In this document: in pieces, positions 40,540 to 58,192 of the stretch
Layout of the letters: each line of letters opens with the position of its first letter
Numbering within the stretch: the first letter of the stretch is position 1
From: Arthrobacter sp. H35-D1
GTDB taxonomy: Bacteria > Actinomycetota > Actinomycetes > Actinomycetales > Micrococcaceae
Length of the DNA stretch: 64,000 nt
Assembly: GCF_030063185.1 (NCBI RefSeq)
Contig: NZ_JASISP010000001.1
Span: 248,001-312,000 of the forward strand
Direction of reading: 5' to 3'
The notes under the pieces: model-generated
What the model saw: the letters and a program-made list of their open reading frames with translations, nothing else
The model's database searches: none
What the model was told of the DNA's origin: nothing
Program-made: the position numbers and the translations under genes

Positions 40540-40947
40540 TCAGGCGGGCAGCAGCTCCGCGATCAGGGCCAGGACCCGTGCCTTGATGTCGTCACGGATG
40601 GGCCGGACGGCGTCCACACCCTGGCCAGCCGGGTCCTCAAGCGCCCAGTCTTCGTAGCGCTTGCCGGCAAAGACGGGGCAGCTGTCGCCGCAGCCCATGG
40701 TGATGACGACGTCGGACTCCTGCACCGCCTGCGTGGTGAGGATGTTCGGGGCCTCCGCGGAGATGTCGATGCCTTCCTCGGCCATTGCCGCCACCGCGGC
40801 CGGGTTTACCGACGGCGCCGGGGCCGAGCCGGCCGAGCGGACGTCGATGGCCCCGCCGGCCAGCTCGGCCAGGTAGGCGGCCGCCATTTGGGAGCGTCCG
40901 GCATTGTGCACACACACGAACAGGACGGAGGGTTTTTGCACAGTCAT
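40540..40947 (-). CDS. arsC: Arsenate reductase, low-molecular-weight phosphatase type
   Basis: A 135-residue enzyme reducing arsenate to arsenite so that it can be exported. The P-loop CVHNAGRSQ has the nucleophile Cys12, and the downstream TMGCGDSCPVFAGKRYEDW holds the resolving Cys pair. The family may use thioredoxin or mycothiol; Actinobacteria often use mycothiol, which sequence alone does not decide. Its ATG overlaps the acr3 stop, so it is the second gene of an acr3-arsC unit. Confidence 0.93.
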   Translation of the reverse strand: MTVQKPSVLFVCVHNAGRSQMAAAYLAELAGGAIDVRSAGSAPAPSVNPAAVAAMAEEGIDISAEAPNILTTQAVQESDVVITMGCGDSCPVFAGKRYEDWALEDPAGQGVDAVRPIRDDIKARVLALIAELLPA

Positions 40948-42035
40948 GGCGATTCCTTATTGGTGAAGTAGCGTTTACGTGCCCACAGTGCCGCATAGAC
41001 CAGGGCAACGAGGACGGGAACTTCAATCAGCGGACCCACCACGCCGGCAAGCGCCTGCCCGCTTGTCACGCCGTAGGTGCCAATCGCCACGGCGATGGCC
41101 AGTTCAAAATTGTTCCCCGACGCGGTAAATGCCAGGGTGGTGGTTTTGGCATAGCCAAGCCCCAGAAAACGCCCGATCAGCATTCCCGCAGCGAACACAA
41201 CTGTGAAATACACCAGCAGCGGAAGGGCGATCCGGGCAACGTCGAGCGGCCGGGACGTGATGGTGTCCCCTTGCAGTGCGAAGAGCAGCACGATCGTGAA
41301 CAGCAGTCCGTAGAGGGCCCACGGTCCCAGTTTGGGCAGGAACGTGTCTTCGTACCATTGGCGCCCTTTGGCCTTTTCCCCCAAGGTCCGGGTCAGAAAG
41401 CCAGCCAGCAGCGGGATGCCCAAGAACACCAGCACCGAGACCGTGACGGCCCAGAAGGAAAAGTCTGCCGTGGTGGTGGGAAGCCCCAGCCATCCAGGCA
41501 GCACCTGAAGGTAGAACCAGCCGAGGGCGCCAAAAGCTACCACCTGGAAGACGGAGTTGAGCAGAACCAGCACGGCAGCGGCTTCGCGGTCGCCACAGGC
41601 AAGGTCGTTCCAAATCATGACCATGGCGATGCAGCGGGCCAGGCCCACAATAATCAGTCCTGTCCTGTATTCGGGCAGGTCCGGGAGGAATATCCATGCG
41701 AGCGCGAACATGAAGGCCGGCGCCAGCAGCCAGTTCAGCACCAAGGACGTGATCAACAGTTTCCGGTCCGCGACCACGCGGGACGTCTCGCTGTAACGCA
41801 CCTTGGCCAGTACCGGATACATCATGACCAACAAACCAACCGCTATCGGCAGTGAAATGGAGCCGATCTTCACTGTGTCGAGGGCTGCGTTCAGGCCCGG
41901 TATGAACTTGCCCAGCAACAGTCCCCCGGCCATTGCCGCGATGATCCAGAGCGCAAGGTATCTGTCCAAGGTGGACAGCTTTCGGGCTGCGGCCATGTTC
42001 CCGGCCGCAGCTATGGTGCTGCTTTTCGTGCTCAC
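40944..42035 (-). CDS. acr3: Arsenite exporter of the ACR3 family
   Basis: A 363-residue membrane protein with about ten helices that pumps arsenite out of the cell. The conserved Cys in LARCIAMVMIWNDLACGD is present, as are LSTLDRYLALWI at the start and GNNFELAIAVAIGTYG. I chose GTG 42035, which has GAGGAG 5 nt before it and gives the usual family length; the open frame upstream to 42485 runs through arsR on the other strand. Divergent from arsR, sharing its operator region. Confidence 0.95.
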   Translation of the reverse strand: MSTKSSTIAAAGNMAAARKLSTLDRYLALWIIAAMAGGLLLGKFIPGLNAALDTVKIGSISLPIAVGLLVMMYPVLAKVRYSETSRVVADRKLLITSLVLNWLLAPAFMFALAWIFLPDLPEYRTGLIIVGLARCIAMVMIWNDLACGDREAAAVLVLLNSVFQVVAFGALGWFYLQVLPGWLGLPTTTADFSFWAVTVSVLVFLGIPLLAGFLTRTLGEKAKGRQWYEDTFLPKLGPWALYGLLFTIVLLFALQGDTITSRPLDVARIALPLLVYFTVVFAAGMLIGRFLGLGYAKTTTLAFTASGNNFELAIAVAIGTYGVTSGQALAGVVGPLIEVPVLVALVYAALWARKRYFTNKESP

Positions 42036-42059
42036 GCTACTCCTCAAGGCACAACAGTC

Positions 42060-42079
42060 ATCGATCGACATCCATCGAT
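42060..42079. promoter_or_regulatory. Probable ArsR operator between acr3 and arsR
   Basis: ATCGAT-N8-ATCGAT at 42060-42079 is a symmetric site in the divergent promoter region; a related CATCGA half lies near 42098-42103. A TTGACC at 42088-42093 may be a -35. The arsenic-sensing repressor encoded at 42133 is the natural ligand. Confidence 0.65.
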
Positions 42080-42120
42080 AGAAAGTATTGACCGATACAT
42101 CGACAACTGTCAATACAAGA

Positions 42121-42126
42121 CATAAT
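42121..42126 (+). promoter_or_regulatory. -10 box (CATAAT) of arsR
   Basis: CATAAT ends 6 nt before the ATG at 42133, supporting that start over the one at 42088. Confidence 0.45.
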
Positions 42127-42132
42127 GGGTAC

Positions 42133-42552
42133 ATGGACATTACGTCGTCGCTTGAACCGAGCACCCATCCGGAGGCTGGGCCGGGCCCCGAGCCCACCGG
42201 CTGCGAGCCAACCGCCAGGAACGCGCTCAGTGCCGTTGATGCCCAGGCGAAGGCCAGCTTGCTCAAGGCCCTGGCCGACCCCAACCGCCTGCGTCTACTC
42301 TCCATCGTCAAGTCCGGTGCTAACAAGTCCGGCACCGTCGAGTCCGGGGTCGTCAATTCGGGAAGCCGCGCCGAGGCCTGCGTCTGCGAGCTCACCGGGC
42401 CGCTGGGGTTGGGCCAGCCCACCGTTTCCCACCACCTGAAAATCCTTGTGGATGCCGGGCTCCTCACCCGCGAAAAGCGTGGCACCTGGGCGTACTACTC
42501 GTTGGTTCCCGGCGCTTTGGAGGCTGCTTCGCAGAGCATTCTCGCGCTGTAG
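42133..42552 (+). CDS. arsR: ArsR-family arsenic-sensing repressor with an insertion
   Basis: A 139-residue winged-helix repressor: LLKALADPNRLRLLSIV, then the metalloid-binding CVCEL (C83, C85), then QPTVSHHLKILVDAGLLTREKRGTWAYY. Between the helix ending at 60 and the Cys motif there are about 20 extra residues made of a loose repeat (KSGANKSGTVESGVVNSG) that ordinary ArsR proteins lack, just before the sensing site. It represses itself and acr3-arsC until arsenite binds. The -10 of the next gene overlaps its stop codon. Confidence 0.92.
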   Translation: MDITSSLEPSTHPEAGPGPEPTGCEPTARNALSAVDAQAKASLLKALADPNRLRLLSIVKSGANKSGTVESGVVNSGSRAEACVCELTGPLGLGQPTVSHHLKILVDAGLLTREKRGTWAYYSLVPGALEAASQSILAL

Positions 42553-43234: not shown

Positions 43235-43720
43235 ATGACCACCCCCTACCGGATCATTACCGTCTGCACCGGCAATATTTGCCGCTCCCCCATGGCCGAG
43301 TTCATGCTGGCGGATGCGGCCGCGGAGGCCGGGCTGGACATGGTTGTCGACTCTGCCGGAACGTCGGCTTGGGAGACCGGGAACCCGATTGACCCGCGAG
43401 CCAAGGCCGTTCTGGCGCGACACGGCATTGCCACCTCGGAGCATGCGGCACGTAAATTCAACCCGGCGTGGTTTGGTCAACGGGAACTGATCCTGGCCCT
43501 GGACACCGACCACTTCGACGCCCTCCGGGCCCTCGCCCCCAACGCCGAAGCAGCCGACAAGGTACGCATGCTGCGCTCCTTCGACCCCGAGGTGGCCCTT
43601 GCCCAGCCACGGCAGCAAGGCATTTACGACCCCTGGTTCGGGAGTGCGAAGGACTTCGATGTCAGCTGGGACTTGATCTCCGCGGCCATTCCCGGCATCC
43701 TGGCGCACGCGCGTGGCTAG
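43235..43720 (+). CDS. Low-molecular-weight protein tyrosine phosphatase
   Basis: A 161-residue phosphatase with the P-loop CTGNICRS (nucleophile C11, R17) near the N-terminus and the general-acid loop YDPWFG with Asp before Pro near residue 131. This is the enzyme type, not the arsenate reductase type found at 40540, since the second Cys cluster is missing. Targets in Actinobacteria include tyrosine-phosphorylated envelope proteins; none is known here. Its last codons overlap the maximal frame of the next gene. Confidence 0.94.
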   Translation: MTTPYRIITVCTGNICRSPMAEFMLADAAAEAGLDMVVDSAGTSAWETGNPIDPRAKAVLARHGIATSEHAARKFNPAWFGQRELILALDTDHFDALRALAPNAEAADKVRMLRSFDPEVALAQPRQQGIYDPWFGSAKDFDVSWDLISAAIPGILAHARG

Positions 43721-46172
43721 TCCCCAGCACCTCCCACCGCTCGCAAGCTCACAGCGGGACCCTCGGAGCAGTGGCCCCACCCAGCACCTCCCACCGCTCG
43801 CAAGCTCACAGCGGGACCCTCGGAGCAGTGGCCCCACCCAACGCCCGGTGATCATCGCCGTCGACGGCCGTTCCGGCGCCGGAAAAACCACTGTAGCCGT
43901 GGAACTGGCGGCCCTGCTCCGCCGCCATCGCACGGTTTCGCTCTTCCACCTTGAAGACATTTACCCGGGCTGGGACGGACTGGCAGGCGGCGTGGAGCGG
44001 TACATCGGATCCGTTCTGGAACCCCTGCACCAAGGCCTGCCTGCCACCTGGACCGCATGGGATTGGGAAGCCAGGAACGACGGCGCCTCCCGCACCACCG
44101 CTGTTGCCCCAGTGGTGCTCGTGGAAGGAGTTGGGTCCTCACACGGCCGTGCCATCGACTACCTCGACGCCGTGATTTGGGTCGATGCCCCCCGGCAGGC
44201 CCGCAAGCAACGCGCCCTTGAGCGCGACGGCGAGACCTATGCACCTTTTTGGGACGCCTGGGCGGAGCAGGAAGAACGCCTGCTCGGCGGGGAAAGCAAA
44301 GCAGGCAAGGATGGCAAGGCAGGCAAAAACAGCCTGGGCGGTGGCCTCGGAGAAGACGCCACCGGAGCCGCCTGGGCAGACATTGTTGTGGACGGCACCC
44401 ATGGCGTGGCGCAGGCCCCGAATTCAATTCTCGACGCACTCACCCAGCTCCCTGCCCTCGAACACGTGCTGGGCCCGGAGCTGGCACGGCGCCGCGGCTT
44501 GGAGTTTTCTGCCGACCGCATTGCCGGGCTGCCTGATGCCGCACAACTTTTTCATGCCTTGTACGGCGCTGCCGACAATGCCGTGTGGCTGGACAGCTCC
44601 ATAACGGAAGAAACCGCAAGGACTGCCCCGGGAACGGCACCAATCGCCGCCGGCCGGGCACGATTTTCCATCATGGCCGATCCCTCCGGCAGTTTCGGCC
44701 AGCTGGCCCGGCATGAGTCGGCTGTGACAACTGTTTCGGCCGGGCAGGTGACAACACGCATCGGCGGCCCATTTTTCAGTTGGCTGGATTCGGTGTGGGG
44801 CCGCAAGGCCGTGCGTGCCCCTGAGCATTATCCCGGCGATTTCACCCTCGGCTGGCTGGGTTATTTGGGCTACGAGCTCAAGGCCGAAACGGGCGGCGCC
44901 GCCCGTGAGGCAAGCTCGGTGCCCGCATCCGGTATCGTGGGCGGCGCAGCCCCTCCCGCCGCGCCACTGCCTGCGCCTACACTGTCCGCACTTGCACCGT
45001 CCGCGCCGACACTTTTCGCACCTGCACCGGCACTGACCCCGGCTCCGCTGCCAGCTGCCGCACTGCTCTTTGCCGGCTTGGCGGTGGTGCTCGACCACCA
45101 GGAAAACTGTCTCTACGTCCTGTCCCTGACAAGCGCCCACCTTCCCGCCTCAACTGTCGAAGCAGAAGAATTCCTGGCCAGGGTCACGGCTGCCTTTCAC
45201 GCCGCGAAACATGCTGGCGCACAAACCGCTTCCACCCGGACCACAGCTCCTGCCACCTGCCAGTCAGCCCTGCCGCCAGCCAGCCAGCCAATCCTGCCGC
45301 CGGCCGGCACTCCCGCTCCCCGCTTCACCGCCCGTGACGGTCAACAGCGCTACAAGGCGATGATCGCCGCGGCGCAAGAGCAGATCCACGACGGCAACAC
45401 CTACGAAGTCTGCCTGACAACCCAATTGGAAGCGCGCACTGCCGCGAAGGTGGACGCGTGGGCGGCCTACCAGGCGCTGCGGAAGCGCAGCCCTGCACCG
45501 TTTGCGGCGTTCATGAAGCTCGATTCGACGAGTGTTTGCAGCACGTCGCCCGAACGTTTCCTGTGCATCGCCCCGGAGGGTCTCATGCGGGCCGAACCCA
45601 TCAAGGGCACCCGCCGCCGCGACGCCAACTCGGAAGCAGACGCTGCGCTCAAGCGGGATCTTGCCACGTCGCTGAAGGACCGTGCCGAGAACATCATGAT
45701 CGTGGATCTGTTGCGCAACGACCTCTCCCGTTTCGCCCTGCCCGAATCGTTGACGGTCCCCCGGCTGTGCGCCATCGAAAGCTACACCACAGTGCACCAG
45801 ATGGTCAGCACCATCGAAGCGCAACTGGCGCCGGGCAGCTCGCGCGCCCAAGCCGTCGCCGCAGCTTTCCCGGCCGGATCCATGACGGGCGCGCCGAAAA
45901 TAAGCACCATGGCCATTCTCGACACTCTCGAGGCCGGGCCCCGCGGCATCTACTCGGGTGCCATCGGCTATTTTTCACTCAATGCCGCCATGGATTTGTC
46001 GGTGGTGATCCGCACGCTGGTTCTCCAAGACACCCACGACGGCGGCACGCAGCTGTCGCTGGGAATCGGCGGAGCCATCACGGCCGATTCCGACGACGAA
46101 GCCGAATGGCAGGAGATCCAAGCCAAGGCCTACGGCGTCCTGTCCACCCTTGGGGCCGATTTTCCCCTTTGA
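43713..46172 (+). CDS. pabB: P-loop kinase-like domain fused to aminodeoxychorismate synthase component I (PabB)
   Basis: Up to 819 residues. An N-terminal P-loop domain resembling uridine kinases (IIAVDGRSGAGKTT, VVLVEGVGSS, VIWVDAPRQARKQRALER) is joined through Ala/Pro-rich stretches to a chorismate-binding domain: YKAMIAAAQEQIHDGNTYEV, SPERFL, the PabB-specific Lys in EPIKGTRRR (about 630) and FPAGSMTGAPK (about 721). PabB aminates chorismate for p-aminobenzoate and folate; the glutaminase partner is not here, but a PabC-like lyase is at 48552. The maximal frame starts at GTG 43713 and runs through the 57-bp repeat; GTG 43848, just before the P-loop, is an equally good and perhaps truer start. 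Confidence 0.85.
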   Translation: MASPQHLPPLASSQRDPRSSGPTQHLPPLASSQRDPRSSGPTQRPVIIAVDGRSGAGKTTVAVELAALLRRHRTVSLFHLEDIYPGWDGLAGGVERYIGSVLEPLHQGLPATWTAWDWEARNDGASRTTAVAPVVLVEGVGSSHGRAIDYLDAVIWVDAPRQARKQRALERDGETYAPFWDAWAEQEERLLGGESKAGKDGKAGKNSLGGGLGEDATGAAWADIVVDGTHGVAQAPNSILDALTQLPALEHVLGPELARRRGLEFSADRIAGLPDAAQLFHALYGAADNAVWLDSSITEETARTAPGTAPIAAGRARFSIMADPSGSFGQLARHESAVTTVSAGQVTTRIGGPFFSWLDSVWGRKAVRAPEHYPGDFTLGWLGYLGYELKAETGGAAREASSVPASGIVGGAAPPAAPLPAPTLSALAPSAPTLFAPAPALTPAPLPAAALLFAGLAVVLDHQENCLYVLSLTSAHLPASTVEAEEFLARVTAAFHAAKHAGAQTASTRTTAPATCQSALPPASQPILPPAGTPAPRFTARDGQQRYKAMIAAAQEQIHDGNTYEVCLTTQLEARTAAKVDAWAAYQALRKRSPAPFAAFMKLDSTSVCSTSPERFLCIAPEGLMRAEPIKGTRRRDANSEADAALKRDLATSLKDRAENIMIVDLLRNDLSRFALPESLTVPRLCAIESYTTVHQMVSTIEAQLAPGSSRAQAVAAAFPAGSMTGAPKISTMAILDTLEAGPRGIYSGAIGYFSLNAAMDLSVVIRTLVLQDTHDGGTQLSLGIGGAITADSDDEAEWQEIQAKAYGVLSTLGADFPL
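43725..43838 (+). repeat. Exact 57-bp tandem duplication
   Basis: 43725-43781 is repeated without a change at 43782-43838. The unit is 19 codons long, so the reading frame of the following gene stays open through both copies. Each copy contains CCGCTCGCAAGCTC, complement of the GAGCTTGCGAG core of the hairpin at 35182, suggesting intergenic repeat DNA rather than true protein sequence. Confidence 0.95.
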
Positions 46173-48551: not shown

Positions 48552-49481
48552 ATGACAGTTTTGGTGTTCCTGGATCCCGTCCACCCCGCAGGCCGTCTGG
48601 TCGACGCCTCGTCCCCCGCCATTCTGGCCACGGACCAGGGTGTCACGCGGGGGGACGGAATTTTTGAGTCCATGCTGGCTGTCAACGACGTGCCGCGCAA
48701 AGTCCAAGCGCACCTTGCCCGGCTGGCCGACTCCGCCCGCATCATGGATTTGCAGATACCGCCCGAAGAGGCTTGGCACGCAGCCATGGCGACCGCACTC
48801 ACTGCCTACTCGGCAGGCGTCGGCGCAAAGAGCCAAACCGCGGAAAACCAGGCTGCCGAAGAACAGGCTGTCGTGAGGCTCATTGCCACCCGCGGGCCGG
48901 AAGGGGCCAATGCAGCCACTGCATGGGTGCAGGTTTCGGCCATCTCGCCAGCCTTGGCACAGCAGCGGGCCAAGGGCCTCGATGTAGTTTTACTCGACCG
49001 CGGCTATGACAGCCAAGTGGCAGCCCGGGCCCCGTGGCTGCTGCTGGGGGCAAAAACCCTCTCCTACGCCATAAATATGGCAGCACTGCGCCATGCCCGC
49101 AGCTTGGGCGCGGATGACGTGATCTTCACCAGCGCCGACTCCCTGGTGTTGGAGGGTGCGACGTCGTCGGTGCTGTTGGCGCATGTTTCGGACGACTCCG
49201 GTGTCCCCGTCAAGCGGCTCATCACCCCGCACTTGGACACCGGGATTCTGCCCGGCACCACGCAGGGCGCGCTCTTCGCAGCAGCCAAGGCGGCCGGGTG
49301 GGAGTTGGGCTACGGTCCGGTCACCCCGGCGGATCTGCAGGATGCCGACGCTGTCTGGCTCATTTCCAGCCTCCGCCTGCTGGCCCCCGTCAACACGATC
49401 GACGGACAGGGCGTTGGCATCCCGGAGGTCCGGGCACAGCTCACCAAGGAGCTCAGCTCGCTGCTGGCACAGGCGTTGTAG
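48552..49481 (+). CDS. pabC: Class IV aminotransferase, probably aminodeoxychorismate lyase
   Basis: A 309-residue PLP enzyme. The opening TDQGVTRGDGIFESM, the PLP Lys (K168 in LLGAKTLSYAINM), LEGATSSVLL and TGILPGTTQGAL are the landmarks of the class IV fold. The nearby PabB fusion supports the lyase that releases p-aminobenzoate and pyruvate, although a D-amino-acid or branched-chain transaminase cannot be excluded. There is an inserted low-complexity stretch near 90-108 (KSQTAENQAAEEQA). Its 3' end overlaps the convergent gene at 49453 by 29 bp. Confidence 0.85.
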   Translation: MTVLVFLDPVHPAGRLVDASSPAILATDQGVTRGDGIFESMLAVNDVPRKVQAHLARLADSARIMDLQIPPEEAWHAAMATALTAYSAGVGAKSQTAENQAAEEQAVVRLIATRGPEGANAATAWVQVSAISPALAQQRAKGLDVVLLDRGYDSQVAARAPWLLLGAKTLSYAINMAALRHARSLGADDVIFTSADSLVLEGATSSVLLAHVSDDSGVPVKRLITPHLDTGILPGTTQGALFAAAKAAGWELGYGPVTPADLQDADAVWLISSLRLLAPVNTIDGQGVGIPEVRAQLTKELSSLLAQAL

Positions 49482-50205: not shown

Positions 50206-50322
50206 GAGTAATGAGTTCCAGCGCCAAGCCCTGACTTGCTGGACGGCAACCCTCTTTCCGGCGGGGTGCCTCAGGTGAATACTCGGCAAACCCGGCTATC
50301 AATGGCTGGGCAATGCAAGCGT
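50206..50322 (+). ncRNA. SAM-IV riboswitch
   Basis: The stretch AATGAGTTCCAGCGCCAAGC (50210-50229) through CGGCAACCCTC and GGCGGGGTGCC to GGTGAATACTC has the conserved SAM-IV core seen before methionine genes in Actinobacteria. GAGTA (50206) pairs with TACTC (50280) as P1, and a further hairpin (ACCCGGC..GCTGGG) follows at 50290-50311, as expected for the SAM-IV 3' pseudoknot stem. It should turn off the DUF1737-rhodanese-metZ operon when S-adenosylmethionine is plentiful. Confidence 0.88.
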
Positions 50323-50416
50323 GAACATTTTTTGCGGTGGGCTTCGAGTGCCGACTCTTGGGCACCGCCACCAGCTCCCGCTTGCAACCAACAGCGACTT
50401 GCAACGAGGAGTACCC

Positions 50417-51130: not shown

Positions 51131-52342
51131 TTGAGCAACTTTAACGAGCACGCGGCCACATGGGCCGAGGACACGCAGGCCGTGCGCGGCGGTCTTGACC
51201 GCAGCCACTTCGCGGAAACCTCGGAAGCCATCTACCTGAACTCCGGATTTGTCTTTGAATCGGCCGAGGCTGCCGAGCAGGCGTTTACCGGAGAAGTCGA
51301 CAGGTTTGTATACTCCCGCTATGGAAACCCGTCGGTGGCCACCTTCCAAGAGCGGTTGCGCCTGCTCGAAGGCAAGGAAGCATGCTTTGCCACGGCTTCA
51401 GGGATGTCCGCGGTCTTCACCGCCCTCGGCGCCCTGTTGGGTGCCGGCGACAGAGTTGTGGCCTCACGTTCACTGTTTGGTTCGTGCTTTGTAATCCTGA
51501 ACGAACTGCTGCCGCGTTGGGGCGTGGAGACGGTGTTTGTGGACGGCCCCGATATTGCGCAGTGGCGCGAGGCGCTCTCGGTTCCCACCACGGCTGTCTT
51601 TTTTGAGTCCCCTTCCAACCCCATGCAGGAAATCATTGATGTGCAGGCCGTGTGCGACTTGGCCCATGCTGCGGGCGCCCAAGTGGTGGCCGACAACGTC
51701 TTTGCCACCCCGCTGTTGCAGCGCTGCGGCGACTTTGGCGCGGACATCATTGTGTATTCCGGCACCAAGCACATTGACGGTCAGGGCCGCGTGCTGGGAG
51801 GCGCCATCCTGGGCACCAAGGAGTTCATCGACGGCCCCGTCAAGAACCTCATGCGCCACACCGGGCCGGCCTTGTCAGCCTTCAACGCCTGGGTGCTGAC
51901 AAAGGGGCTGGAAACCATGAGCCTGCGCGTGAGCCATTCCTGCAACAACGCACTGGCTCTCGGCGAGTTCTTGGAGGCACAGCCGCAGATCAGCCGCGTG
52001 CTGTACCCGCACCTGCCGTCCCACCCGCAGCATGAGCTGGCCAAAAAGCAGATGAAGGCCGGCGGCACCGTGCTGACCTTCGAACTGGCCAAACCGGCCG
52101 GCGGCACCACCAAGGATGCCGCCTTCAAGCTGCTCAATGCGCTGGAGATTATTGACATCTCCAACAACCTCGGCGATGCAAAGTCCCTCATCACCCACCC
52201 GGCCACCACCACGCACCGCGCCATGGGCCCGGAAGGCCGTGCAGCCATCGGCCTGGCCGACGGCTTCCTGCGCCTGTCCGTGGGCTTGGAGGACGTGGGA
52301 GACCTGCGCGCGGACTTGGCGCGGGCCCTGGCCGCGATCTGA
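51131..52342 (+). CDS. metZ: O-succinylhomoserine (or O-acetylhomoserine) sulfhydrylase MetZ
   Basis: A 403-residue PLP enzyme of the Cys/Met metabolism family that makes homocysteine directly from an activated homoserine and sulfide. YSRYGNPSVATFQERL near 56, the PLP Lys K213 in YSGTKHIDGQGR, and THPATTTHRAMGPEGRAAIG near the end are family landmarks; the GNPS/GQGR pattern fits MetZ better than cystathionine gamma-synthase. It starts with TTG (51131) after AAGGA. It is the last gene of the SAM-IV-controlled operon. Confidence 0.93.
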   Translation: MSNFNEHAATWAEDTQAVRGGLDRSHFAETSEAIYLNSGFVFESAEAAEQAFTGEVDRFVYSRYGNPSVATFQERLRLLEGKEACFATASGMSAVFTALGALLGAGDRVVASRSLFGSCFVILNELLPRWGVETVFVDGPDIAQWREALSVPTTAVFFESPSNPMQEIIDVQAVCDLAHAAGAQVVADNVFATPLLQRCGDFGADIIVYSGTKHIDGQGRVLGGAILGTKEFIDGPVKNLMRHTGPALSAFNAWVLTKGLETMSLRVSHSCNNALALGEFLEAQPQISRVLYPHLPSHPQHELAKKQMKAGGTVLTFELAKPAGGTTKDAAFKLLNALEIIDISNNLGDAKSLITHPATTTHRAMGPEGRAAIGLADGFLRLSVGLEDVGDLRADLARALAAI

Positions 52343-54790: not shown

Positions 54791-55588
54791 TTAGCCGAAT
54801 ATCGGGTTCCAGCTGCCGAGCACGACGGCGGACACCACCGACACGGCTGCGATCACCAATCCTCCGGCAACCACCCACGCGTCGTGCGGGGCGAACCTCG
54901 ATTCCCGGGCCCAGGTGCGCGGGCCGGCCCCAAAGCCCTTGGCCTCCATGGTGACGGCCAGCCTCGAGGCGCGGCGCACGGCTTGCACGAGCAGTGCCAT
55001 GGCCTGGCCCAGTTGGGCCCTCAGCCCGCGGAACAGTCCAGGTTCCGCGCCCACTCCGCGGGCGCGGCGTGCCATGCCCAACGTCTGCCATTCGGCGACG
55101 AGCAGTCCCACCAGACGCATGGCAGCCAGCGCCCCGAGCACAAAGCGGTGTGGCAGCCGCAGCTTTTGCGCAAGGGCATCGGCCAGGTCGGTGGGGTCGG
55201 TGGAGGCCAAGACGATGATGGCGGGAAGGGCGATGGCCAGCCCGCGCAAGGCAATCGCAACACCGGCCTCAAGTGACCCGCTGGTAAACGTCACTGGACC
55301 CAGCGAGAGCAACATCTCCCCGGTTTTGGGCGCCAACAAGGCCGTGCCGTAACCTCCCACGACGGCTGCCATGAGGATCGGCCAGCCGCGCAGCAAAAGC
55401 ATCCGCACGCTGAGCCCGGCCAGCGGCAGCAAGGCGCATTCAAGCACCAAGGCCACCGTTGACGACACCCAGTCGACGCTTGTCAGGAGCACGATCGTGA
55501 TGGCCATGCCGGCGCCCAGCTTGGCCAATGGATTTGTGCGGGCCAGCCAGGCGCGGGAGCGCGGGGCGGCCATGATGTCAACGCTCAT
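54791..55588 (-). CDS. ykoC: ECF transporter transmembrane (T) component, YkoC type
   Basis: A 265-residue membrane protein with five or six helices. The two coupling motifs of EcfT proteins are visible, as RRARG (MARRARGVGAEP) and RRASRLAVTMEAKGFGAG, which bind the ATPases. Together with YkoD and YkoE it forms an energy-coupling-factor importer for thiamine or its hydroxymethylpyrimidine precursor. Its ATG overlaps the ykoD stop by 4 nt; last gene of the operon. Confidence 0.92.
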   Translation of the reverse strand: MSVDIMAAPRSRAWLARTNPLAKLGAGMAITIVLLTSVDWVSSTVALVLECALLPLAGLSVRMLLLRGWPILMAAVVGGYGTALLAPKTGEMLLSLGPVTFTSGSLEAGVAIALRGLAIALPAIIVLASTDPTDLADALAQKLRLPHRFVLGALAAMRLVGLLVAEWQTLGMARRARGVGAEPGLFRGLRAQLGQAMALLVQAVRRASRLAVTMEAKGFGAGPRTWARESRFAPHDAWVVAGGLVIAAVSVVSAVVLGSWNPIFG

Positions 55589-57222
55589 CGCCGCACCGCC
55601 CCTCCGTTTGTCGACGTCTTCGCCGCGTCCGCCAGCGGTGCCCCCTGCGAGCCCGAGATCCGCGCGGAGACGTCATGGTCTCCAAGCCCGACGGGGTGCG
55701 AGGTGCCGCCGAGCACAAGCCGGTCCCCTCCCAAAACAGCGTTGAAGGCAGCGTCGTGTGTCACCGAAACGACGGCCGTGCCGGCGTCCAAAAGCTCCGT
55801 GAGCAAGGATGCGAGCTCCGCCCACGTATTGGCGTCTTGGCCAAACGTGGGCTCGTCCAGGATCAGCACCTGCGGACTCGCAGCCAGCACAGTGGCCACC
55901 GACAACCTCCGCTTTTCACCTCCGGAGAGGGTAAACGGGTTTGCCTGCGCCAGATGTTCCAGCCGCAGTCGCACCAACAAGTCCTCCACGGAGTCCTCGC
56001 CCTGGCCCAGCAGTCGCGGGGCAAAAAGCAGCTCATCGCGCACCGTGCCCGCCACAAATTGGTGTTCAGGTTCCTGGAACACCGTGCCAATCCGGCTGAT
56101 CAGCTCGCGGCCGCGCCACTTCAGCGGCGAAGTTGACCCCCCGCGGGCCAACGCCGGGGTCGCCTCCAACAGCCCGCCCACAGGGGCCAGCAGTCCGGCC
56201 AGCGTCAGTGCCAGCGTCGATTTTCCCGACCCGTTGGGACCTGTCACGCTCAGCGCCTGGCCAGCGTTGATGTGCACATCGGGCACGACGGCGGCCGGAA
56301 CCACCGGGTGCCGTCGCCGTCCCTTCGTGCGGGAGACGGCAAGGGCTTGCGCTTCGAGCAAGAGCTGCGCTCCGGCGTCGAGCTTCCCCGGCCCCGCTGT
56401 CCCCACCTTGGGGATAGCAGGGGTGCGCGGCCGCACTGCGGGGATATGGCCGGGGATCCAGATCCCGGCGGCCGCCAGCAACTCCCGGCTCTGTGCCAGC
56501 ACGGTGGCAGGTGGGCCGTCGAACAGCACGCCGCCGGGCTCTCCCAGAGCAGCGGGGGCCAGCACCACGATCCTGTCCACCACTTCCAGCCACACCGAGA
56601 CGCGGTGTTCCACAACGACCAGCGTGGCTCCGGTTTCATCAAGGGTGCGGCGCACCGCGTCGCGGACCTCCACCACGCCGGCCGGGTCGAGGTTGGCGGT
56701 GGGCTCATCCAGCAGCAGCAGGCCGGGGCGCATGGCCAGGATGCCGGCCAGGCCGAGACGTTGTTTCTGCCCGCCCGACAGGGTCGAGCTGGAATGGTCA
56801 AGAGGCAAGTTCAGGCCCACGGCTTCAAGGGCCTCCGGCACCCGGCGCCAGATTTCCTCCCGGGGAACCGCCAAGTTCTCCGCTCCGAAAGCAACGTCGT
56901 CGCCAATGCGTGAGAGCACCACCTGGGCGTCGGGGTCCTGCTGCATGAGTCCGGCACGGCCGCGTGATTCCGCCACCGGCCTGCCGTCAACGAGCAGGTC
57001 GCCGCTCTCGCTGGCGTCCTCATCGGCACCCAGGACACCGGCCAAGGCGTGCAGAAGCGTGGATTTTCCGGCTCCGGAGGGACCCAACAACAGCACCCGT
57101 TCCCCGGGCTCAACCACCAGGTCAAGCCCTTGCACGGCACGGTTGCGCCGGCCTGAATGCTGCCACCCCCAGCCCTTCGCTTGTATCCGCACCGGGGAGC
57201 ACCGGTTTTGCGCGGTTGCCAT
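55585..57222 (-). CDS. ykoD: ECF transporter double ATPase, YkoD type
   Basis: A 545-residue protein with two fused ABC ATPase domains: Walker A GPSGAGKST at 47-55, signature LSGGQKQRLGLAG and Walker B LLLLDEPTANLDP in the first; GPNGSGKST near 325, LSGGEKRRLSVAT and VLILDEPTFGQD in the second. It drives uptake through YkoC/YkoE. ATG 57222 is 2 nt behind the ykoE stop. The linker between domains (about 260-305) is Pro/Ala-rich. Confidence 0.95.
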   Translation of the reverse strand: MATAQNRCSPVRIQAKGWGWQHSGRRNRAVQGLDLVVEPGERVLLLGPSGAGKSTLLHALAGVLGADEDASESGDLLVDGRPVAESRGRAGLMQQDPDAQVVLSRIGDDVAFGAENLAVPREEIWRRVPEALEAVGLNLPLDHSSSTLSGGQKQRLGLAGILAMRPGLLLLDEPTANLDPAGVVEVRDAVRRTLDETGATLVVVEHRVSVWLEVVDRIVVLAPAALGEPGGVLFDGPPATVLAQSRELLAAAGIWIPGHIPAVRPRTPAIPKVGTAGPGKLDAGAQLLLEAQALAVSRTKGRRRHPVVPAAVVPDVHINAGQALSVTGPNGSGKSTLALTLAGLLAPVGGLLEATPALARGGSTSPLKWRGRELISRIGTVFQEPEHQFVAGTVRDELLFAPRLLGQGEDSVEDLLVRLRLEHLAQANPFTLSGGEKRRLSVATVLAASPQVLILDEPTFGQDANTWAELASLLTELLDAGTAVVSVTHDAAFNAVLGGDRLVLGGTSHPVGLGDHDVSARISGSQGAPLADAAKTSTNGGAVRR

Positions 57223-57224
57223 GG

Positions 57225-57872
57225 CTAGACCGCTCGTTCGGTGGCGGCACGGCGCGAGGCCAGGTTGGCAAGCGCCCCTGTCCGTGCCAGGCCGCGCACG
57301 GCGAGCCATGAAACCAGCCCGGCGATGACGGCACCGGAGACCATGGCCAGCACAATGTAAACGAGTTTCCACTGCAGTGCCCACGCGACGTTGTAGACAA
57401 GGCTGTCATTCAAGCCCAGCGCCAAACCGGAGAAGGCGCCAGCCAGCAAGGCCACCGGCAGGGTGAACTTGCGGTAACGGAAGGCCGCAAAGACCAGCTC
57501 GGCACCCAGCCCCTGCACCAAGCCGGAAAGCAGCACGGTGAAGCCAAAGTGCGTGCCCAAAAACCCCTCGACAGTTGCGGCAATCAGCTCGCAATAAAGT
57601 GCTGCGCCGGGCTTGCGGATCACCAGGCCGCCCAGCACGCCGGCGATCAGCCAGCCGCCGCCATACAGGGCAGCGACGGGCGGGAAGGCGACCGTGAAGG
57701 CGGCGATAAAACCGTAGCCAGCGGACCAAAGCCAGAAAATGACGCCCACGGCAACGCCGAGAACGGACACCACCACGATGTCCACCACCCGCCAGCTACT
57801 TTTGGGTGTGGCTTGATTGCGCGGTGATTGATGGTTGGCAGCGGTGTTTTCGCCCGCCATTGACTTGCTCAT
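57225..57872 (-). CDS. ykoE: ECF transporter substrate-binding (S) component, YkoE type
   Basis: A 215-residue membrane protein with six helices matching YkoE: IVVVSVLGVAVGVIFWLW, ALYGGGWLIAGVLGGLVIRK, FGFTVLLSGLVQGLGAELVF and GLALGLNDSLVYN. It binds the substrate, thought to be thiamine or hydroxymethylpyrimidine, outside the cell. A strong AAAGGAGG lies 6 nt before the ATG at 57872. First gene behind the TPP riboswitch, which supports the substrate assignment. Confidence 0.95.
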   Translation of the reverse strand: MSKSMAGENTAANHQSPRNQATPKSSWRVVDIVVVSVLGVAVGVIFWLWSAGYGFIAAFTVAFPPVAALYGGGWLIAGVLGGLVIRKPGAALYCELIAATVEGFLGTHFGFTVLLSGLVQGLGAELVFAAFRYRKFTLPVALLAGAFSGLALGLNDSLVYNVAWALQWKLVYIVLAMVSGAVIAGLVSWLAVRGLARTGALANLASRRAATERAV

Positions 57873-57927
57873 GTTTCCTCCTTTTCAGGAGGGGCGGCTG
57901 CCGCGGTATTTCCGCGCAGCCGAAGAG

Positions 57928-58030
57928 AAGCTCGACTCCCTTCGCCGGTACTAGCCGGAGCAGGTTCGAGGGTCTGCGGTTAAACCGCACTCTCAGCGCT
58001 CTCACCCAAGTCGGGTGGACGCTCCCCTGT
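57928..58030 (-). ncRNA. TPP riboswitch (THI element)
   Basis: On the minus strand the THI motifs appear in order: GGGGAGCGTCC, GCTGAGAGTGCGG (the CTGAGA that binds the pyrimidine) and then ACCCTCGAACCTGCTCCGG with CTAGTACCGGCGAAGGGAG (the pyrophosphate-binding half). It ends about 55 nt before the ykoE ATG, so thiamine pyrophosphate should shut the importer operon down, probably at the level of translation or termination. Confidence 0.95.
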
Positions 58031-58192
58031 CGTGTTGAATTGCGGTATCAGTTTACCCCCGACCAAGGCCTGGCGGTAATACCCGCACTCACAATCAGTA
58101 ACTTAGCCGCGTTGGCGCCCTGCGGGCAAGTCCAATTCGCTGCCCGGGATTGCCATGTTGCGTTGCGCCCTGGCGGCGACTGGATGAACCAA

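Follow-up and report, generated by a model that had tools for sequence, protein, structure and literature searches.

PabB (TIGR00553), with solved relatives 8hx6 and 1k0e (E. coli), carries a full chorismate-binding domain and an active-site lysine in a PIKGT motif, where TrpE has PIAGT or PIAGS. Uridine-cytidine kinases (PF00485; 3asy and 1uej) combine a P-loop kinase fold with an E-G motif, an arginine lid and an acidic residue at the D-x-x-Y position. In thiamine salvage the first phosphorylation falls to ThiK, a thiamine kinase, or to ThiN, the usual pyrophosphokinase for thiamine. PRK06547 (NF005115) is named ‘hypothetical protein’ in NCBIfam, without a stated function, and its members stand alone in most of the genomes that carry it. 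On the uptake side, the substrate listed for the transporter YkoEDC is thiamine or its pyrimidine precursor HMP (PMC6593275, PMC5613172). In a transcriptome study of Corynebacterium glutamicum, a TPP riboswitch was observed in the 5′-UTR of the operon head cg1227, which belongs to an ABC transporter; a thiamine role was offered there as speculation (PMC3890552).

The gene described here joins a PRK06547-type kinase domain to PabB in Arthrobacter sp. H35-D1 (Micrococcaceae). It lies in a stretch of 64,000 nucleotides, hereafter the window (contig NZ_JASISP010000001.1, positions 248,001 to 312,000), whose own numbering is used throughout. The product is probably a two-enzyme vitamin protein, made of a salvage kinase for thiamine or a thiamine precursor and of PabB, with the kinase substrate suggested by gene context. 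Its PabB half has the full chorismate-binding domain and the PIKGT lysine of TIGR00553 proteins, and differs from them by the N-terminal kinase domain and a Pro/Ala-rich insert; unlike the PabA–PabB type, its glutaminase is a separate protein. The kinase half shares with uridine-cytidine kinases the fold, the E-G motif, the arginine lid and the acidic residue, but identity in structural alignments is about 18–25%, and the tryptophans of its G-W, D-W and W-x-x-W motifs are the kinase family's own. With ThiK and ThiN it would have in common the role alone; as far as known, their fold is a different one.

The fusion gene and its PabB half

The gene, its parts and its neighbours are the following.

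43235..43720, + strand: low-molecular-weight phosphotyrosine phosphatase gene, upstream syntenic neighbour (PF01451, E = 5e-34)
43713..46172, + strand: kinase (PRK06547 family)–PabB fusion gene, 819 aa with GTG 43713 as start, 774 aa with GTG 43848
43723-43836, + strand: two perfect head-to-tail 57-bp copies at the 5′ end of the fusion ORF, outside both domains (read from the sequence)
43848..44297, + strand: P-loop kinase domain of uridine-kinase fold (NF005115, E = 2e-41; structural model; fold search)
43866-43889, + strand: Walker A motif GRSGAGKT (read from the sequence)
44652..44888, + strand: PabB N-terminal region (weak Anth_synt_I_N match, PF04715, E = 1.4e-5)
45342..46127, + strand: PabB chorismate-binding domain (PF00425 Chorismate_bind, E = 5e-84; TIGR00553 match)
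45597-45611, + strand: PIKGT, active-site lysine motif of aminodeoxychorismate synthase (read from the sequence)
48552..49481, + strand: pabC, aminodeoxychorismate lyase, downstream of the fusion (NF005886, 265.9 bits; cut-off 253)

In the ORF list of the window, the frame 43713..46172 opens with a GTG. This start is uncertain: GTG 43713 overlaps the phosphatase stop codon, and about 38 codons after it derive from the perfect 57-bp tandem duplication. GTG 43848 is the alternative start, and the kinase domain begins at 43848 under either choice. Tandem pairs of the ∼57-bp element are found at three sites of the genome (window 43723-43836, C1:30235-30357 and C33:238987-239106); the copies are near-identical inside each pair and diverged from site to site.

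The PabB half scores above the TIGR00553 pabB equivalog cut-off (332.2 versus 328.4 bits). It is the sole PabB of the genome: PIAGS replaces PIKGT in the next chorismate-binding protein, which resembles TrpE. One TrpG/PabA-type glutaminase over the cut-off is encoded elsewhere in the genome. The PabB half would make 4-amino-4-deoxychorismate from chorismate, with ammonia from this separate glutaminase, and the downstream PabC would complete p-aminobenzoate. In the AlphaFold model of the fused chain both domains are confident (mean pLDDT 86, pTM 0.87).

Other features of the window, with gene names assigned by eye, concern sulfur and arsenic. A SAM-IV riboswitch (78 bits; 50207-50327, + strand) lies upstream of a rhodanese-like gene and of a gene for a sulfhydrylase-like PLP enzyme at 51131. 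An apparent cluster for arsenic resistance at 40540-42552 comprises genes that resemble those for arsenate reductase, the ACR3 transporter and the ArsR regulator.

The kinase family, its fold and its thiamine neighbours

The kinase half matches NF005115/PRK06547 over almost the whole profile (E = 2e-41); its 141.3 bits fall short of the 173 bits curated as cut-off for the whole protein, and it is described here as homologous to the PRK06547 family. Pfam matches to the same half are PF13238 (6e-6) and PF00485 (2e-5), with the PF00485 gathering score narrowly passed by the domain alone (24.7 versus 22). At a threshold of E ≤ 1e-10, the family occurs in 192 of 297 genomes sampled across the class Actinomycetes, mostly as a stand-alone protein of ∼200 aa. 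The motifs of the kinase half are GRSGAGKT, the acidic LEDIYPGW, EGVG and an arginine lid (RQARKQRALERDG). Among 67 aligned members including that of the window, the P-loop, D/E-x-x-Y-x-G-W, D-W, E-G-V-G, the R-D-G lid and W-x-x-W are invariant or nearly so. Walker A residues G7, G10, G12 and K13 never vary; R126, W42, W73 and W138 are present in 67/67, and the residue at the uridine kinase base position (E/D36) is acidic in every one of them.

The predicted model of the kinase domain is confident (pLDDT 88.5). Among solved structures, uridine-cytidine kinases come closest to it in fold (Foldseek 8e-10; VIA Z 18, rmsd 2.4), an assignment with which the sequence profiles agree, and no thiamine kinase figures among the best 50 matches of the alignment-based fold comparison. 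The score against the uridine kinase equivalog TIGR00235 (udk) is far under its cut-off, and the fold therefore leaves the substrate unsettled. ThiN (TIGR01378) and ThiK (TIGR02721) profiles do not match the kinase half, and whole-genome searches place neither at the fusion locus.

A putative thiamine uptake operon is present in the window itself.

54791..55588, − strand: ykoC-like gene, ECF transporter T component (ORF; resembles the CbiQ-family gene of locus L217)
55585..57222, − strand: ykoD-like gene, double ECF ATPase (ORF; start set by eye)
57225..57872, − strand: ykoE-like gene, ECF substrate-binding component (PF09819, 8e-40)
57920..58038, − strand: TPP riboswitch ahead of ykoEDC (RF00059, 59.5 bits; gathering 54.3)

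This operon lies 8.6 kb downstream of the fusion and converges on the kinase-pabB-pabC cluster; no TPP riboswitch shows up in the Rfam search immediately ahead of the fusion gene. Profile searches of the whole genome detected ThiL and gave no ThiN, ThiK or ThiC above cut-off. The bacterium probably depends on external B1 vitamers; it has a riboswitch-controlled importer and, in ThiL, the means to convert thiamine phosphate to TPP. Apart from the fusion, the genome would have no recognised enzyme to phosphorylate thiamine taken up for salvage, since neither ThiN nor ThiK is above cut-off. Across the class, ThiN is above cut-off in 0 of the 297 genomes; weaker matches cover mostly ∼45 residues of ∼400-aa proteins, which are not ThiN and are probably SteA-like.

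Stand-alone members of the family also point to thiamine uptake. In a context scan of 80 kinase loci from named genomes, ykoC lies directly upstream on the same strand in 27 loci (Microbacteriaceae, the Mycobacteriaceae genera Mycobacterium and Mycolicibacterium, and Corynebacterium) with ykoE ahead of it in 26, and thiP preceded by thiB is upstream in three (two Leucobacter, one Cellulomonadaceae); these counts are not independent, the operon evidence being drawn in large part from the single family Microbacteriaceae. Pfam and NCBIfam confirm YkoE (PF09819), the ECF ATPase, the T component and the thiamine-type binding protein at kinase loci. Rfam places a TPP riboswitch ahead of ykoE or thiB in 20 of 30 such operons, and in 0 of 20 scanned kinase loci that are devoid of thiamine-uptake genes. 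C. glutamicum has a PRK06547 protein above cut-off and YkoE, without ThiN. In the independent class sample the kinase accompanies YkoE in 74 of 88 YkoE genomes (odds ratio 4.1, p = 3e-6), with a kinase set that includes weak, possibly paralogous matches such as those of genus g61; YkoE is absent from 118 kinase-bearing genomes, and the kinase from 14 YkoE genomes. In six genomes of family f4, kinase and YkoE are found within ∼3 kb on the same strand. Presence of the kinase is not correlated with loss of ThiC (p = 0.81).

Additional neighbourhoods were seen in single lineages. At a Mycobacterium locus (L222:4510-5436) an NMT1/THI5-like binding protein (PF09084, 3e-45) is encoded next after the kinase, which also hints at a pyrimidine/thiamine context. 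In two reduced genomes of family f32 (L132 and L133) the kinase sits in a conserved neighbourhood of carotenoid-synthesis and protein-kinase genes, and adjoins a membrane protein of ∼197 aa (c56) that resembles, by eye, PnuC-type vitamin transporters.

Alternative substrates have to be weighed against thiamine. A kinase half that acts on HMP, or on the thiazole, and duplicates ThiD or ThiM appears unlikely. Such an activity would suit a listing in which YkoEDC imports HMP and another transporter type serves thiamine (PMC6593275), and TPP-riboswitch operons are compatible with HMP as well as with thiamine. However, the transporter that precedes the kinase in Leucobacter and in a Cellulomonadaceae genome, thiB-thiP, is annotated for thiamine, and an HMP kinase would leave the genome with no known enzyme for salvaged thiamine, ThiN and ThiK being below cut-off.

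Rather improbable, too, is a substrate such as uridine, cytidine, nicotinamide riboside or pantothenate, whether nucleoside or other small metabolite, the thiamine neighbours then being inherited synteny. The closest solved folds are indeed uridine-cytidine kinases, and thiamine genes are missing from the surroundings of many kinase loci, for instance from the carotenoid/protein-kinase neighbourhood of a reduced genome. Against this stand the uridine kinase equivalog score (26.8 of 220 bits) and the association of the kinase with two unrelated types of thiamine transporter under TPP riboswitches, for which synteny alone is an insufficient explanation. The nucleoside, pantothenate or folate-precursor substrates suggested for assay in the preliminary description of the locus are likewise not where gene context points. 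Thiamine remains the preferred candidate substrate.

Conservation and separation of the two halves

The kinase domain was detected in 141 of 148 sampled Micrococcaceae genomes. In 93 of the 141, from 21 genera, kinase and PabB occupy a single open frame; complete single-contig genomes are among them, as are all seven genomes sampled from the genus to which the window belongs. An alignment of 48 fused proteins shows no variation in the Walker A motif, the lid arginines, the tryptophans or PIKGT. These data bear out the preliminary description, which had reported a P-loop kinase domain fused to PabB at 43713-46172, an intact P-loop (GRSGAGKTT), a likely lid and an intact catalytic PabB lysine. 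Its question as to whether both halves are always fused receives a divided answer: fusion extends over the 21 Micrococcaceae genera, but in other actinobacteria the kinase is common without PabB. No kinase–folate gene neighbourhood was found outside Micrococcaceae. Chorismate-binding genes a few kb from the kinase in families f2 and f3 carry PIAGT or PIAGS, and are therefore TrpE rather than PabB.

Within the family either half can occur apart from the other. Genera g3, g6 (Kocuria), g11 (Galactobacter), g12, g15, g16, g17 and g22 encode the kinase as a gene of its own, mostly at the same locus, where dnaK and the phosphatase gene precede it and cardiolipin synthase and/or pabC follow; PabB is encoded elsewhere in these genera, often in a longer ORF, or none is found above the TrpE level. 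Conversely, genus g13 has PabB and no kinase match. In the PabB tree, two g13 PabBs nest in the fused PabB clade (support 99/99). In the kinase tree, the unfused kinases of g6, g11, g12, g16 and genome G131 fall among the fused ones, and those of g2, g3, g15, g17 and g22 branch outside them. The simplest reading of these trees, whose within-family branch supports are mixed, would be one fusion event in Micrococcaceae followed by loss of either half. The fusion most likely arose through a lost stop between neighbouring genes, and later lineages would have lost the kinase half or the PabB half.

Two genomes of genus g4, G082 (L157) and G133 (L159), have a frame broken within or before the PabB half, and the other sampled g4 members are fused; the breaks look like frameshifts, due to sequencing error or decay. 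In Ornithinimicrobium cavernae (L187:3455-4471), a kinase of the same family stands behind a domain that is NUDIX-like by eye, possibly another fusion.

The preliminary description had also considered that the P-loop domain may be regulatory. An N-terminal domain that senses ATP on behalf of PabB would accord with a one-chain fusion kept in 21 genera, and is nonetheless very unlikely. PabB of g13 does without the kinase, several genera keep the kinase without an adjacent PabB, and the full conservation of catalytic residues in fused and unfused copies alike makes a purely regulatory P-loop improbable. Survival of each half without the other makes the kinase an unlikely PabB regulator or folate enzyme. 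An assembly or annotation artefact joining two genes, the caveat raised in the preliminary description, is hardly conceivable despite the two broken g4 frames, given one frame in 93 genomes, complete ones included, and no separate genes in the sampled members of the genus. The fusion is genuine, and the protein probably combines two independent enzymes.

A proposed role in vitamin salvage

Taking the preferred reading, the N-terminal half would be an active small-molecule kinase of uridine-kinase fold. It would most likely phosphorylate thiamine imported by the TPP-riboswitch-controlled YkoEDC, HMP being the less likely substrate, and ThiL would then complete TPP from the kinase product. Thiamine kinase activity is thus a candidate activity, suggested by operon and riboswitch context. 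Nothing in the fusion sequence appears to require coupling of the two activities. The link between cofactor phosphorylation and p-aminobenzoate synthesis put forward in the preliminary description survives in part: the kinase does occur in thiamine-uptake operons elsewhere, but the connection does not run via folate, the halves separating both ways.

For the family as a whole, PRK06547 may well be an unrecognised thiamine kinase of uridine-kinase fold, unrelated to ThiK and ThiN, which would close a missing salvage step across much of the class Actinomycetes; joined to PabB, it would give Micrococcaceae a bifunctional B1/B9 enzyme. The searched literature, outside which most subscription journals lie, yielded no description of the fusion, of a PRK06547 function or of an actinobacterial thiamine kinase. 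As far as this literature goes, the fusion with PabB is a new, conserved two-vitamin architecture.

The candidate thiamine-salvage kinase for Actinomycetes is a more interesting outcome than the fusion. Small, common and unnamed, and encoded in operons headed by TPP riboswitches, this kinase is a candidate for thiamine phosphorylation in these bacteria that lends itself to direct testing. If the proposal is true, predictions of vitamin auxotrophy would become sharper for actinobacteria of soil, freshwater and skin.
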